NCBI GenBank assembly: GCA_017883075.1
Contig: JADGOI010000005.1
Coordinates: 1-51,692 of the forward strand
Source: Acidimicrobiales bacterium
GTDB taxonomy: Bacteria > Actinomycetota > Acidimicrobiia > Acidimicrobiales > RAAP-2
Length of the DNA stretch: 51,692 nucleotides
Direction: 5' to 3'
Shown here: positions 45,094-51,692 of the stretch, piece after piece
Layout: every line of letters starts with the position of its first letter
Position numbering within the stretch: position 1 is the first letter of the stretch
Notes under the pieces: generated by a model
The model's database searches: none
Seen by the model: the letters and a program-made list of their open reading frames with translations, nothing else
What the model was told of the DNA's origin: nothing
Translations under genes and position numbers: made by a program

Positions 45094-45159
45094 GAGGACC
45101 CTGCCCGGGCGCCGGGCACCCTCGTTCGACACCGCCCCGGCGATAGTGTGGAGGACAAC

Positions 45160-47091
45160 GTGCATGCGCCACTGTCAAAGATGGGAAGAGGGCCCCGGCT
45201 TCGCATTTCGATAGCCGTGTTGGTGACCGCGTCGCTCAGTGTGCCGATGGGGCTGGTGGCATCGGCGGCCACCGCCTCGGCGATTCCGCATTCGTCATCA
45301 GTCGTGACCCTCACCGGCCACGGTTACGGCCACGGGCACGGTATGGGCCAGTGGGGAGCGCTGGGGTACGCCCTCGATCAGACCCCCTATCAATCGATCG
45401 TGGCGCTCTACTACGGAGGAACCGCGTTGTCGTCCCTGAGCCCCGCGGCGGAGGCGACCCAGGTCCACGTCGAGCTCTCCGAGAACAACGACAACACGGT
45501 CATCGTCACCTCCGGGTCCCCTTTCACGGTGGCGGGTTTGCCGGTGCCGCCCGGGCAGGCAGTGCTGATGACCAACAACGGCGCCAGTGGATCGTGGAAT
45601 GCCACCGTGGGCGGCGGGTGCGGCGGCCCGTGGAACGGTGCGGTGGTGGCCAACGTCACCAATCCCACCGCGGTGCCGAGCCACAACCCCGACTTGGGCG
45701 ACCCTGCCGCCGCAACCGATGCCCTCCAGTTGTGCCAGGGGGGCAGTGGCGGCAACATCGCCCTGCGAGGGAGCATCGAGGCAACCGACTACCAGGGTCA
45801 GTCCCGCACCGTCAACATCGTGCCTCTCGAGCAGTACGTCGCCGGTGTCGTCCCCAATGAGTCGCCCTCCTACTGGGGCACACTGGGCGGTGCCGGACCC
45901 CAGGGCCAGGCGTGGGGATTCCAGGAGCTCGAGGCCCAGGCAGTCGCGGCCCGTTCGTATGTGATGGCCGGTCTCGGTTCGTACTACGGATACGCCGATA
46001 CCTGTGACCTGAACTGTCAGACCTACCAGGGGACAAAGAACGAGAGCACGCTCGCCGACCTGGCTGCCTCCGACACCGCCGGCCAGGTGATGGAGTTCCC
46101 CGGTGGGGCAGTGGCGGCCACCCAATACTCGGCATCCACCGGCGGCTATACCAATCCCGGCGCCAACTCACTCGGGTTTCCCGCGGTTCCTGATGCCGGC
46201 GACTCGGTCTGTGTCCCCGGGGCGTGTAATCCCAACCACACGTGGAAGGCATCGGTGGCGTCCTCGGATATCGAGGCCGACTGGCCCCAACTCGGCACCT
46301 TCGAATCGTTGAAGGTGACGGCCCGCAACGGATTTGGGGACTGGGGTGGCCGGGTGACCTCGTTGACGCTGGTCGGGTCCAAGCAGAACGTGCAGATGTC
46401 CGGCGACCTGTTCGCCGGGACCCTGGGGTTGATGTCTGATTGGTTCACCACCTCCACCCTGCTCAACAAGCCCATCGTCGGCATGGCGGCCACCCCGGGC
46501 GGCAAGGGCTACTGGGAGGTGGCCTCCGACGGTGGCATCTTCTCCTTCGGCGATGCCAGCTTCCATGGGTCCACCGGGGCCATCACGCTCAACAAGCCCA
46601 TTGTCGGCATGGCCGCAACCCCTGCCGGCGGGGGCTACTGGCTGGTGGCCTCCGATGGTGGCATCTTCTCCTTCGGCGATGCCAACTTCCACGGGTCCAC
46701 CGGGTCCATCAGGCTCAACCAACCGGTGGTCGGCATGGCCGTAACCCCTGACGGCGGGGGCTATTGGTTGGTGGCCTCCGACGGCGGCATCTTCACCTTC
46801 GGCGATGCAGTCTTCTACGGGTCCACCGGGGCCCTCAGGCTCAACAAGCCGGTGGTGGGCATGTCGACCTCGGCCGACGGACACGGCTACCGCCTGGTGG
46901 CCTCCGACGGCGGCATCTTTACCTTCGGTGATGCCGCCTTCTATGGATCGGTGGGAAACCAGGCATTGATCGCACCGGTGGTGGGAATGACCGCCACCCC
47001 CGACCGGTTCGGCTATTGGATGGTCGCCTCTGACGGGAGCATCTTCTTCTTCGGTGATGCCGCCTTCTTTGGTTCGCCTTCGGCGGAGTAG
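45160..47091 (+). CDS. SpoIID/LytB-like secreted protein with five 42-residue repeats
   Basis: The GTG at 45160 has GGAGG 5 nt upstream, better than GTG 45148, and gives 643 residues. A signal peptide occupies about 1-42 (ISIAVLVTASLSVPMGLVAS). GHGYGHGHGMGQWGALGY at 53-70 and IVPLEQYVAGVVPNESP, QAVAARSYVMAG and ATQYSASTGGYT are the hallmarks of the SpoIID/LytB family, whose founder cleaves denuded peptidoglycan glycan strands. From about residue 435 five 42-residue repeats follow, as in the upstream gene. The repeats may target the enzyme to the cell surface polymer. Confidence 0.88.
   Translation: MHAPLSKMGRGPRLRISIAVLVTASLSVPMGLVASAATASAIPHSSSVVTLTGHGYGHGHGMGQWGALGYALDQTPYQSIVALYYGGTALSSLSPAAEATQVHVELSENNDNTVIVTSGSPFTVAGLPVPPGQAVLMTNNGASGSWNATVGGGCGGPWNGAVVANVTNPTAVPSHNPDLGDPAAATDALQLCQGGSGGNIALRGSIEATDYQGQSRTVNIVPLEQYVAGVVPNESPSYWGTLGGAGPQGQAWGFQELEAQAVAARSYVMAGLGSYYGYADTCDLNCQTYQGTKNESTLADLAASDTAGQVMEFPGGAVAATQYSASTGGYTNPGANSLGFPAVPDAGDSVCVPGACNPNHTWKASVASSDIEADWPQLGTFESLKVTARNGFGDWGGRVTSLTLVGSKQNVQMSGDLFAGTLGLMSDWFTTSTLLNKPIVGMAATPGGKGYWEVASDGGIFSFGDASFHGSTGAITLNKPIVGMAATPAGGGYWLVASDGGIFSFGDANFHGSTGSIRLNQPVVGMAVTPDGGGYWLVASDGGIFTFGDAVFYGSTGALRLNKPVVGMSTSADGHGYRLVASDGGIFTFGDAAFYGSVGNQALIAPVVGMTATPDRFGYWMVASDGSIFFFGDAAFFGSPSAE
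46462..47088 (+). repeat. Five tandem 126-bp units
   Basis: Units begin at 46462, 46588, 46714, 46840 and 46966 with the same exact 126-bp period as the array 1.4 kb upstream. They encode variants such as PIVGMAATPGGKGYWEVASD followed by GGIFSFGDASFHGSTG. Units are more diverged from each other than those of the first array. Confidence 0.95.
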
Positions 47092-48823: not shown

Positions 48824-49081
48824 ATGCCCGACAAGCAGGCAACCATCGCCGAGTACCGGCTCCACGAGACCGATACCGGTTCACCCGAGGTGCAAATCGC
48901 CATTCTGAGCGAGCGCATCACTCACCTCACCGAGCACCTGAGGGTGCACAAAGGTGATCACCACACCCGCCATGGGTTGCTGAAGCTCATCGGCCAACGC
49001 CGTCGACTCCTCGAATATGTGAGGAACAACGATGTCGAGCGCTACCGGGACATCATCGGGCGCCTCGGCCTCCGCCGTTAG
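48824..49081 (+). CDS. rpsO: 30S ribosomal protein S15
   Basis: This 85-residue protein (family about 88-89) starts at the ATG at 48824. [40 protein letters not shown] and [20 protein letters not shown] form the four-helix S15 fold; [14 protein letters not shown] and the RRRLLxY segment contact 16S rRNA. S15 binds the central domain of 16S rRNA early in 30S assembly. A longer open frame upstream is the leader, which includes a TACCAT -10-like box near 48757. pnp follows, the common bacterial order. Confidence 0.96.
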
Positions 49082-49096
49082 GCGGCCACCGTTCGC

Positions 49097-49120
49097 TTCG
49101 CCCGGCCTTGGCCGGGCGAA
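49097..49120 (+). terminator. Hairpin after rpsO
   Basis: TTCGCCCGGCC and GGCCGGGCGAA form a perfect 11-bp stem with only TT between, 15 bp after the rpsO stop (the real loop would be 4 nt or more). No T-tract follows, so termination may be partial and allow readthrough to pnp. Confidence 0.65.
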
Positions 49121-49157
49121 GGCAATTCTTCCACCGGCAACTCGCTGTTGGACGCCA

Positions 49158-49176
49158 GGTCGACACCGTGTCGACC
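49158..49176. promoter_or_regulatory. Perfect 9-bp palindrome in the rpsO-pnp spacer
   Basis: GGTCGACAC and GTGTCGACC are perfect inverted arms around a single C. A one-base centre suits a dimeric DNA-binding protein better than an RNA hairpin. No regulator can be named. Confidence 0.45.
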
Positions 49177-49249
49177 GGCAGTAGGACCGGCAAGCCGCAC
49201 CGGCGGTAGGCCGTAGACAGAAAGACCGGGCTCCTGCAGAGGTCAGTCA

Positions 49250-49325
49250 CCAGTTGCCGAATACCCGGTTCGCCACCGGGACGGGGTATTCGACAACTGG
49301 GAACTGGCTCGGGGGGCCCCCGAGC
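49250..49325 (+). promoter_or_regulatory. Two stem-loops in the pnp leader
   Basis: A 17-bp stem with one mismatch (49250-49266 with 49284-49300) encloses a 17-nt loop. A second 8-9-bp GC stem (49307-49325, GCTCGGGGG with CCCCCGAGC) ends 5 nt before the AAGGAG site. In E. coli a long pnp leader stem is cut by RNase III and then degraded by PNPase for autoregulation, so an analogous control is plausible here. Confidence 0.6.
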
Positions 49326-49340
49326 AAACCAAGGAGCGTC

Positions 49341-51692
49341 ATGTCAGACGCCATTTCAGTATCGGCACCTATCAGTGGTACCGACCGCACACTCACCTTC
49401 GAGTCGGGAAAGTTGGCTCAACTTGCCGACGGTGCCGTCCTCGCCCGTATCGGGGACACCGTGCTGCTGGCAACAGCCACCGCGTCCCGGTCGGTCCGGG
49501 AGGGAGCCGATTTCTTCCCCTTGACGGTCGACATCGAGGAACGCTCTTATGCGTCCGGAAAGATCCCCGGATCGTTCTTCCGGCGGGAGGGCAAGTCCTC
49601 GGACCAGGCCATCCTCACCTGCCGGCTCATCGACCGCCCCCTCCGCCCGTCCTTCCCCAAGGGTTTTCGCAACGAGGTCCACGTGGTCGGGACCATCTTC
49701 GGGGCTGACCAGATCAACCCGCACGACGTCCTGGCCATCAATGCCGCCTCGGCGGCACTGATGCTGTCAGGCATCCCGTTCGACGGCCCAATCGGTGCTG
49801 TCCGGGTTGCGTATTCGATCGACGGCGTCTGGATCCCGCACCCCACCTTCGAAGAGGGCAACACCTCGACCTTCGAGCTGGTGGTGGCGGGTCGGGCGCT
49901 CAGCGATGCCGACGACACCGACATCGCCATCATGATGGTGGAGGCCGGCGGCACCGAGCGTTCGTTCCAGTACTACGACGAAGGTGCCCCACAGGTCACC
50001 GAAGAGGTACTGGCCGACGGGCTCGAAGCGTCCAAGACATGGATCCGCGAGTCGATCGTCCTGCAGCGCAAGTTGGTGGCGGCTCACATTGCCGATCGTG
50101 GCGCCATCGTTCCTCTCGAGTTCTCCACCCTCTCCGACTACGGGGATGACGTGTGGGAGCGGGTGGTTGCCACCGGCTCGGAGTCGGTGGCCGCAGCCAA
50201 CGCCTTGACGGCCAAAGCCGAACGGAACGGTGCTCTCGACACAGCTACGGCGACGATCGTCTCGGCTCTCTCTTCCGAGTTCCCCGACCGCGAGCGGGAG
50301 ATCAAGGCCGCCGTCAAGGGGCTGACCAAGAAGCTGGTGCGCAAGCGCATCGTGGAAGAGGGCATTCGGATCGACGGGCGGAACACGACAGAGATTCGCC
50401 CGCTGTCGGCCGAAATCGATCTTCTGCCCACCGCGCACGGTTCTGCGATCTTCCAGCGGGGTGAGACCCAGGTGCTCAATGTGACGACTCTGGGCATGCC
50501 CCGGATGAATCAACTACTCGACACCATCACCCCGGTGGATTCGAAGCGGTACATGCATCACTACAACTTCCCGCCGTTCTCGACCGGGGAGACCGGCTTC
50601 ATGCGCGGCCCGAAGCGTCGGGAGATCGGTCACGGCTTGCTGGCCGAACGGGCGTTGCTCCCGGTTGTCCCCTACGCAGAGGACTTTCCCTACACATTCC
50701 GTTTGGTTTCTGATGTGTTGGCCTCCAACGGCTCCACGTCGATGGCGTCGGTGTGTGGATCGACGCTGTCGATGATGGCGGCCGGCGTGCCGTTGCGGGC
50801 ACCGGTGGCCGGCATCGCCATGGGTCTGGTCTACGACGATGGCAACTATGTGACCCTCACTGACATCCTCGGTGCCGAGGACGCATTCGGCGACATGGAC
50901 TTCAAGGTCACCGGGACCAAGGACGTTGTCACCGCCCTGCAACTCGACACGAAGATCGACGGACTGCCCGCGGACGTGCTGGCCAAGGCTCTCCTTCAGG
51001 CAAGGGACGCCCGACTGACGATCCTTGCAGTCATGGCCGAGGCCATCGCCGAGCCCCGCGACGAGGTGGCCTCATCGGCACCAAAGATCATCTCGTTCGA
51101 GATCCCCATGGACAAGATCGGTGAGGTCATCGGGCCCAAGGGCAAAGTGATCAACGCTCTCCAACAGGAGACCGGCGCCGATATCGCCGTGGACGATGAC
51201 GGCATGGTCGGCACCGTGACCATCGGAGCCAAGGACAGCAATGCCGTCGAAGAGGCTCGTCGGCGGATCTCGACCATCCTCGACCCGCCTTTGGCCGAGG
51301 TGGGTGCTATCTACCAGGGCAAAGTCGTGAACATCACCAAGTTCGGGGCATTTGTCAACATTCTGCCGGGTCGCGATGGGCTGTTGCACATCTCGAAGAT
51401 CGGACGCGGCAAGCGGGTGGAGCGGGTCGAGGACGTGCTCGAGCTCGGTCAGCCGGTGGAGGTGAAGGTCGACGACATCGACCCACAGGGCAAAGTGTCC
51501 CTCTCGCTGGCTGGTGAGCCTTCAGGGGACGAGGGATCCTCGGCCCCGGGGCGTTCCGAAAGCAAGGGTGGAGGTCGCGGCGATGGTGGAGGTCGCGGCG
51601 ATGGTGGAGGTCGCGGCGATGGTGGAGGTCGCGGCGATGGTGGAGGTCGTGCCAATCGTGGCGATCACGCTGACCCGGGTGACAGCGTTCAC
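49341..51692 (+). CDS. pnp: Polynucleotide phosphorylase (3' truncated by window edge)
   Basis: The frame is open from ATG 49341 (AAGGAG 4 nt upstream) to the window end: 784 codons with no stop. Two RNase PH domains are evident: [19 protein letters not shown] in the first and [20 protein letters not shown] with [19 protein letters not shown] in the second. KH ([18 protein letters not shown]) and S1 ([20 protein letters not shown]) domains follow. PNPase degrades RNA 3' to 5' with phosphate, or adds tails in reverse. The visible C-terminal tail is a GGGRGD repeat ending in [14 protein letters not shown], an RGG-like low-complexity extension. Confidence 0.97.
51567..51656 (+). repeat. 18-bp tandem repeats coding GGGRGD
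   Basis: Four identical 18-bp units start at 51567, 51585, 51603 and 51621; a fifth, altered unit (GGGRAN) runs to 51656. They code for an Arg/Gly-rich tail of PNPase and could change in number by slippage. Confidence 0.93.

Follow-up and report, generated by a model that had tools for sequence, protein, structure and literature searches.

In the E. coli scheme for the control of pnp, RNase III makes a cut and PNPase then removes the 5' strand. In Streptomyces coelicolor, according to the available part of PMC10126417, RNase III cuts the rpsO-pnp hairpin at an internal loop; in an rnc null mutant, PNPase activity is 2-4 fold higher and the transcripts live longer. The Rfam family Actino-pnp (RF01688) is recorded as a cis-regulatory RNA of Actinomycetales (PMC2864571, Table 1; also PMC11701678; both as far as their available text goes). 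It is known from Streptomyces and relatives, and the accessible text of PMC8079986 reports it from the 5' UTR of S. lividans pnp. The initial annotation of the present locus had held that actinobacterial versions of such control are less well described; the available parts of the work on RNase III cleavage in S. coelicolor (PMC10126417) and on Actino-pnp (PMC2864571) speak against this. The element that we report here is not described in the literature that we covered on Actino-pnp, Streptomyces rpsO-pnp and RNase III, actinobacterial pnp autoregulation, structured RNAs of Acidimicrobi- taxa and Mycobacterium rpsO/pnp, mostly openly accessible texts rather than subscription papers; in the available text of PMC3997798, pnp mRNA is mentioned in the references only.

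We analysed a stretch of 51,692 nucleotides from an Acidimicrobiales bacterium (the window), with rpsO and pnp at its 3' end (Table 1). The region 49060-49360 has a folding energy of -161.5 kcal/mol, compared to -124.2 +/- 5.7 in 100 dinucleotide shuffles (z = -6.5, 0/100 as low). The 16/17-bp stem that the initial annotation had placed in the spacer is present as 49250-49266/49284-49300, with the single mismatch C49257.A49293. Among the relatives listed, visual inspection suggested hairpins like the one at 49158-49176 in some close ones whose spacers are long. Note that the pnp frame is open in the 5' direction as far as 49254, a TTG that lies within the hairpin; the likelier start is the ATG at 49341, with its AGGAG. 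Two further observations concern the encoded proteins. At the pnp end of the window, 51568-51650, a tandem repeat encodes GGGRGD (RGG-like) units, which suggests that the predicted PNPase carries a glycine/arginine-rich tail. In addition, the translation of 45148-47091, a 647-aa protein, has C-terminal repeats of the form GYW..ASDGGIFSFGDA.

Table 1. Features of the rpsO-pnp region, in window coordinates
Feature	Position	Strand	Remarks
rpsO CDS (ribosomal protein S15, 85 aa)	48824..49081	+	reading frame; stop at 49081
12-bp hairpin 3' of rpsO	49096..49121	+	arms 49096-49107/49110-49121, 12/12 bp, 2-base gap
9-bp hairpin GGTCGACAC/GTGTCGACC	49158..49176	+	inverted repeat in window sequence
Outer stem A, 5' arm	49228..49235	+	pairing probability 0.22-0.29 with 49312-49319
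Core of pnp leader RNA	49242..49308	+	covariance-model match 49234-49316
Stem 1, 5' arm GTCAG	49242..49246	+	pairs with 49304-49308
3x3 internal loop, 5' side TCA	49247..49249	+	CTG in 60/93 sequences
Stem 2, 5' arm CCAGTTG, near-invariant	49250..49256	+	pairing probability 1.0
C of conserved C.A mismatch	49257	+	opposite A49293
Stem 3, 5' arm	49258..49268	+	sequence variable, covariation strong; 9 pairs in window, 49258-49266 with 49284-49292
Stem 3, 3' arm	49282..49292	+	pairs with 5' arm at 49258..49268
Stem 2, 3' arm CAACTGG	49294..49300	+	pairs with 49250-49256, 7 bp
3x3 internal loop, 3' side GAA	49301..49303	+	GAA in 75/93 sequences
Stem 1, 3' arm CTGGC	49304..49308	+	pairs with 49242-49246
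9-bp GC hairpin	49307..49325	+	arms 49307-49315/49317-49325, 9/9 bp, 1 base between
Outer stem A', 3' arm	49312..49319	+	partner of 49228-49235
Shine-Dalgarno AGGAG	49332..49336	+	ahead of pnp ATG
pnp (polynucleotide phosphorylase)	49341..51692	+	ATG at 49341; continues past window end

Relatives of the locus were collected with the first 140 aa of PNPase as query, which matched in 193/198 genomes of the order and 96/100 of the family. The spacer was read in 200 loci; two of these (L001 and L002) both represent the window, and L002 was dropped as a duplicate. A scored two-arm search found the hairpin at 176/199 loci with a score >=36 (a few of the weakest being false) and at 163/199 with a score >=43.5. 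Leaving out those of the 163 sequences whose arms are >52 nt apart or that are more than 82% alike gave alignment A1, with 93 non-redundant sequences, nearly gap-free except in the apical loop. The shared architecture consists of stem 1, a 3x3 internal loop, stem 2 with the duplex CCAGUNG/CN'ACUGG, a C.A mismatch and stem 3, the variable upper stem. Stem 1 (A1 columns 9-13/80-84), which is GUCAG/CUGGC in the window, is paired in 94.4% of cells and covaries from A-U to G-C. The internal loop is UCA/GAA in the window and CUG/GAA in 56/93 sequences, and stem 2 occupies A1 columns 17-23/70-76. At the position following stem 2, the mismatch is C.A in 50 sequences, A.C in 15, C.C in 13 and U.U in 1, with a standard pair in the other 14 (n=93).

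Pairing was retained in 90.1% of the A1 cells, compared to 74.9% in shuffled alignments and at most 46.1% when the partners were slid by 1-3 columns. Double changes were seen at 18/23 pairs across the 93 sequences, and 316 cells were altered on both sides, against 102 after shuffling. When RNAalifold was run unaided on A1, it predicted 20/23 of these pairs and no others. As a guard against kinship, we also counted changes within 43 non-overlapping nearest pairs, which cover 86/93 sequences. This gave 98 double compensatory changes, compared to 6-19 in the slid controls, and 85 single changes that keep the pairing; 142 changes broke the pairing or involved an unpaired state, while 303-356 breaking changes were counted in the slid controls. 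Swaps between C.A and A.C at the mismatch occurred only 3 times in the nearest pairs. Covariation, whose absence would have refuted the initial annotation, is strong, and the signal exceeds what had been stated there. The long stem of the spacer is far beyond chance. It is the core of a real, conserved RNA element before pnp, an imperfect hairpin with about 21-23 core bp and an additional outer stem, in which base pairing is strongly selected.

Since the region is GC-rich and holds many inverted repeats, one could ask whether the hairpin is a chance inverted repeat, or a DNA operator without any RNA function. The covariation against slid and shuffled controls refutes a chance origin. Against an operator, A1 contains 226 G.U cells but only 55 A.C cells, an excess which fits the sense strand as the working RNA, and the gap between the stem-2 arms ranges from 29 to 113 nt across 160 loci, which is unlike a DNA operator. 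We give this explanation next to no credence.

A covariance model, R1, was built from the 93 order-and-family sequences, window included. In its own genome the model scored the window at 71.7 bits (E 4.5e-14), the only significant place besides its own reverse strand (40.8 bits); a weak match elsewhere (E 0.9) has neither rpsO nor pnp. At E<=0.001 on the pnp strand, R1 matched 172/198 further order and family loci (83/98 + 89/100). Note that 92 of these 198 loci had helped to build the model, and that among the other loci 80/106 match. The 26 loci without a match comprise 9 spacers of 19-63 nt, 1 cut by a contig end and 16 with enough room. Spacers of 33-63 nt without the element, with RNase III kept in the genome, were found at L009, L021, L049, L060 (f61), L102 and L116 (f59), with only a fragment of RNase III in the genome of L021 (G129); these loci are lineage losses and potential natural controls.

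The element is also found beyond the class. In whole phylum genomes, R1 matched 68/296, 48 of them outside the class, under strict filters that lose weak matches. Model R2, a rebuild that took in matches found beyond the class (76 rows, 3 of them from the wrong strand: L046, L032 and L175), was used only for the distribution and for the comparison with Actino-pnp. With the same kind of strict filters and loss of weak matches, it matched 93/396 phylum genomes, including 66 outside the class with 15 family codes. We examined 36 strong-match loci (L223-L252 and L372-L377), of which 24 belong to genomes outside the class; in 36/36 cases the match precedes pnp, and in 35 rpsO is upstream. Nineteen sequences from outside the class are 90.4% paired, with a covariation score of 0.457 compared to 0.177 when shuffled, values that are favoured by their having been found with R1. 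The exact pattern occurs at no fewer than 118 places (>=118) in named genomes: at 112 of them pnp starts 0-150 nt after its end (110 of these stretches also contain rpsO), and the other 6 have no pnp in the stretch examined. Among the matches listed, the record titles, with few exceptions, refer to Acidimicrobiia or members of that class, or say Actinomycetes, Actinobacteria or Actinomycetota and nothing more precise. Two records that carry the exact pattern before pnp, L286 and L330, are titled Acidobacteria or Acidobacteriota, which suggests mislabelled genome bins. One genome, G542, has two strong matches on separate contigs (C19:1885-1965 and C127:5713-5797), which may reflect a second pnp locus or else contamination, reported as 6%.

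The position of the element was measured at 156/163 loci. The median distance from the 3' end of stem 1 to the pnp start downstream is 32 nt (IQR 30-45, range 20-102), and the distance from the rpsO stop to the 5' end of stem 1 has an IQR of 59-119 nt and a range of 15-243. With the window rpsO as query, rpsO was found upstream of pnp in 194/200 loci; in 5 it is absent from the approximately 700 nt upstream, and 1 stretch ends at a contig end. R1 gives E<=0.001 at all five loci without a nearby rpsO; the matches of L085, L121 and L129 are strong, those of L082 and L128 weak. The tight distance to pnp, together with these matches, indicates that the element goes with pnp. In 23/156 loci stem 1 begins <=45 nt after the rpsO stop, so little space is left for a promoter between them; a simple scan found no sigma-70-type promoter, although such a scan says little in this phylum. 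As a side observation, in one genus (g137) the codon aligned to the window ATG is TTG in L164, L165, L166, L168, L173, L175, L176, L181 and L189, and GTG in L170.

These placements bear on the idea that some other RNA-binding protein, for instance S15, or PNPase without RNase III, docks at the hairpin and would block pnp translation directly. In favour of this, stem 2 and the GAA of the internal loop are near-invariant, more than pairing requires, and the element lies directly downstream of rpsO. However, its retention with pnp at the five loci without a nearby rpsO argues against S15, while a trans-acting S15 is still compatible with it. S15 binding sites have a three-way junction, a fold not seen in the element. 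We regard docking of this kind as unlikely.

The outer stem was assessed through the energies of A:A' duplexes in 92/93 sequences, 1 having been dropped for a short flank. Matched arms had a mean of -19.2 kcal/mol, compared to -14.9 +/- 0.3 for permuted partners, kinship not having been removed. In the window, the outer stem competes with the GC hairpin, which is predicted to pair with a probability of about 0.70, versus <=0.29 for the outer stem. Once given a normal loop, this hairpin folds as 8 bp. In the interval from stem 1 to the Shine-Dalgarno sequence (SD), perfect hairpins of >=6 bp were present in 38/160 loci, a count without a chance control, which makes the GC hairpin a patchy extra. 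Such hairpins occur in 14/72 loci of the family and 24/88 loci of other families; within the same interval they are found in 13/22 loci with the window's TCA loop and in 1/50 other family loci. The GC hairpin that the initial annotation had described before the pnp ribosome binding site does exist in the window, but its occurrence in relatives is patchy and it competes with the covarying outer stem.

Another explanation is an SD switch, in which cleavage or refolding would let A' or A pair with the ribosome binding site and so close it. In some relatives, GGTGCCCC is by eye able to pair with GGAGCACC, and the SD of the window is predicted to pair weakly with 49320-49321 (0.20) or 49230-49234 (0.08-0.09). 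However, over 81/93 loci (12 were dropped, as they lacked rpsO, an SD or a start codon where one had been estimated) the predicted openness of the SD was alike in the intact leader (mean 0.33) and in the 3' fragment (0.31); in the fragment it fell by more than 0.2 in 14/81 loci and rose in 8/81. Matched A:SD duplexes (-8.0) were no better than mismatched ones (-8.3), and A':SD duplexes barely so (-9.7 vs -8.7). With neither the duplex energies nor the predicted openness in its support, we hold such a switch to be very unlikely.

On the rpsO side of the spacer, a hairpin of >=7 bp follows rpsO in 106/138 relatives, compared to 24/138 base-shuffled sequences. These strong hairpins would suit transcription attenuation, with terminators or antiterminators between rpsO and pnp. 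Against it, the window hairpins have no U tract, and a search of the + strand for terminator-like sites with a T run gave none; among the relatives, >=5 T in the next 10 nt follow only 9/106 of the rpsO-side hairpins. Moreover, long imperfect stems that keep their mismatches are unlike intrinsic terminators, and the 23/156 loci with stem 1 close to the rpsO stop also speak against attenuation, which we consider highly improbable. The initial annotation had seen a terminator-like hairpin after rpsO that would set the ratio of the two genes; the hairpin is real, with its 12/12 bp, but it lacks a U tract, so that its role as a terminator is only putative.

The reading that we favour, with a probability of about two in three, is a cis-acting pnp leader that, like those of E. 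coli and S. coelicolor, would be a target of RNase III cleavage and of PNPase degradation. We infer the enzymes from the S. coelicolor data, the E. coli scheme and the RNase III gene in the genome, which together make this control the most likely. The transcript strand of the rpsO-pnp spacer carries a long double-stranded hairpin, as the E. coli/S. coelicolor type requires, and the genome has a gene for RNase III (225.9 bits, over cut-off). By analogy, RNase III would cut this double-stranded hairpin, either in the pnp transcript or in the read-through one; the freed 3' end would then be attacked by PNPase, which would remove the 5' strand, and the exposed pnp mRNA would be poorly translated or decay. 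Abundant PNPase would thereby lower its own synthesis. The resemblance to a PNPase autoregulation leader, which had been proposed from the window, is thus borne out for a conserved, covarying and pnp-anchored hairpin in a genome with an RNase III gene, although not for the GC hairpin as a constant part of it.

RNase III was matched in 40/40 genomes tried, 38 of them over cut-off, whether the element was present or absent. Among the 26 genomes without the element it was found in 21/21 checked, as a fragment only in G129 and just below cut-off in G032. We therefore discarded the idea that loss of the element tracks loss of RNase III, as no association was seen. The fact that RNase III is retained where the element is missing indicates that the element is dispensable.

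Within the favoured reading of RNase III cleavage and PNPase degradation, the conserved mismatches probably fix the RNase III cut site or a protein docking site. In addition, stem 2 is conserved beyond what a plain RNase III substrate would need, and this sequence pattern hints at a further, sequence-specific partner. The near-invariant duplex and the retained mismatches offer precise positions for recognition by RNase III or PNPase. Tentatively, and with odds that we place well below even, we propose that the element is a separate RNA family, absent from Rfam 15, present in more than one class of the phylum and likely older than Actino-pnp; that its CCAGUNG/CN'ACUGG duplex with the R.G and C.A/A.C mismatches is read sequence-specifically by PNPase or RNase III; and that Actino-pnp is a divergent descendant in Streptomyces and relatives. 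If this were true, pnp feedback would rest on recognition of a motif and not on the cutting of any double-stranded RNA. RNA annotation currently misses the motif.

Actino-pnp itself was compared directly. RF01688 is over cut-off in 14/198 phylum genomes, with 0/17 members of the present class among them, and 14/14 of the loci examined over cut-off lie between rpsO and pnp, like the present element. The layouts are also alike: a basal stem, a small symmetric internal loop, a 5-bp middle stem, a 3x3 loop, a variable upper stem and conserved loop letters. However, the letters differ, UCGGUAGU...UUCGAUCGA in RF01688 versus CCAGUNG...CNACUGGGAAC in the present element, and the family codes do not overlap, RF01688 having f73, f83, f88 and f92 and none of the 15 R2 codes outside the class. 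RF01688 gave no match in 49000-49400, even at E<=10, and its best score in the same genome was 20.8 bits, on another contig. Membership in Actino-pnp was rejected, since neither the window nor any of 20 relatives tried (0/20) reached the gathering score of 47.7. Conversely, R2 gave right-strand matches at 6/14 RF01688 loci, with 18.6-24.2 bits (E 0.0027-0.048), yet the wrong strand scores higher; R1 behaved likewise, more weakly than R2. The matches that Rfam did give in the window, to microRNA-type hairpins, groES and other families, were far below their gathering scores and were set aside as chance matches on hairpins. In place and layout the element resembles Actino-pnp, and it is not a member of RF01688 as defined. 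Different RNA sequences at one gene junction raise the question of whether an ancestral element diverged or such elements arose repeatedly.

The E. coli pnp leader stem-loop lies farther from the start codon than the present element, which, unlike that leader, carries conserved sequence blocks. Both share the order of the rpsO-pnp operon: a hairpin after rpsO, which is a terminator in E. coli and terminator-like here, then a stem-loop, which is an RNase III target in E. coli and a putative one here, and then pnp (PMC5872136, available text, for E. coli). The locus of S. coelicolor, whose RNase III is AbsB, is alike in its operon layout, in the hairpin right before pnp and in the presence of an internal loop, according to the available parts of PMC10126417 and PMC5872136. 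The S. coelicolor hairpin, as far as the available text describes it, has a [4/4] internal loop at which cleavage is experimental, whereas the 3x3 loop and 1x1 mismatch of the present element are known from sequence. Taken with these likenesses, the favoured reading would extend pnp leader control, experimentally backed in E. coli and Streptomyces, to Acidimicrobiia and other members of the phylum.
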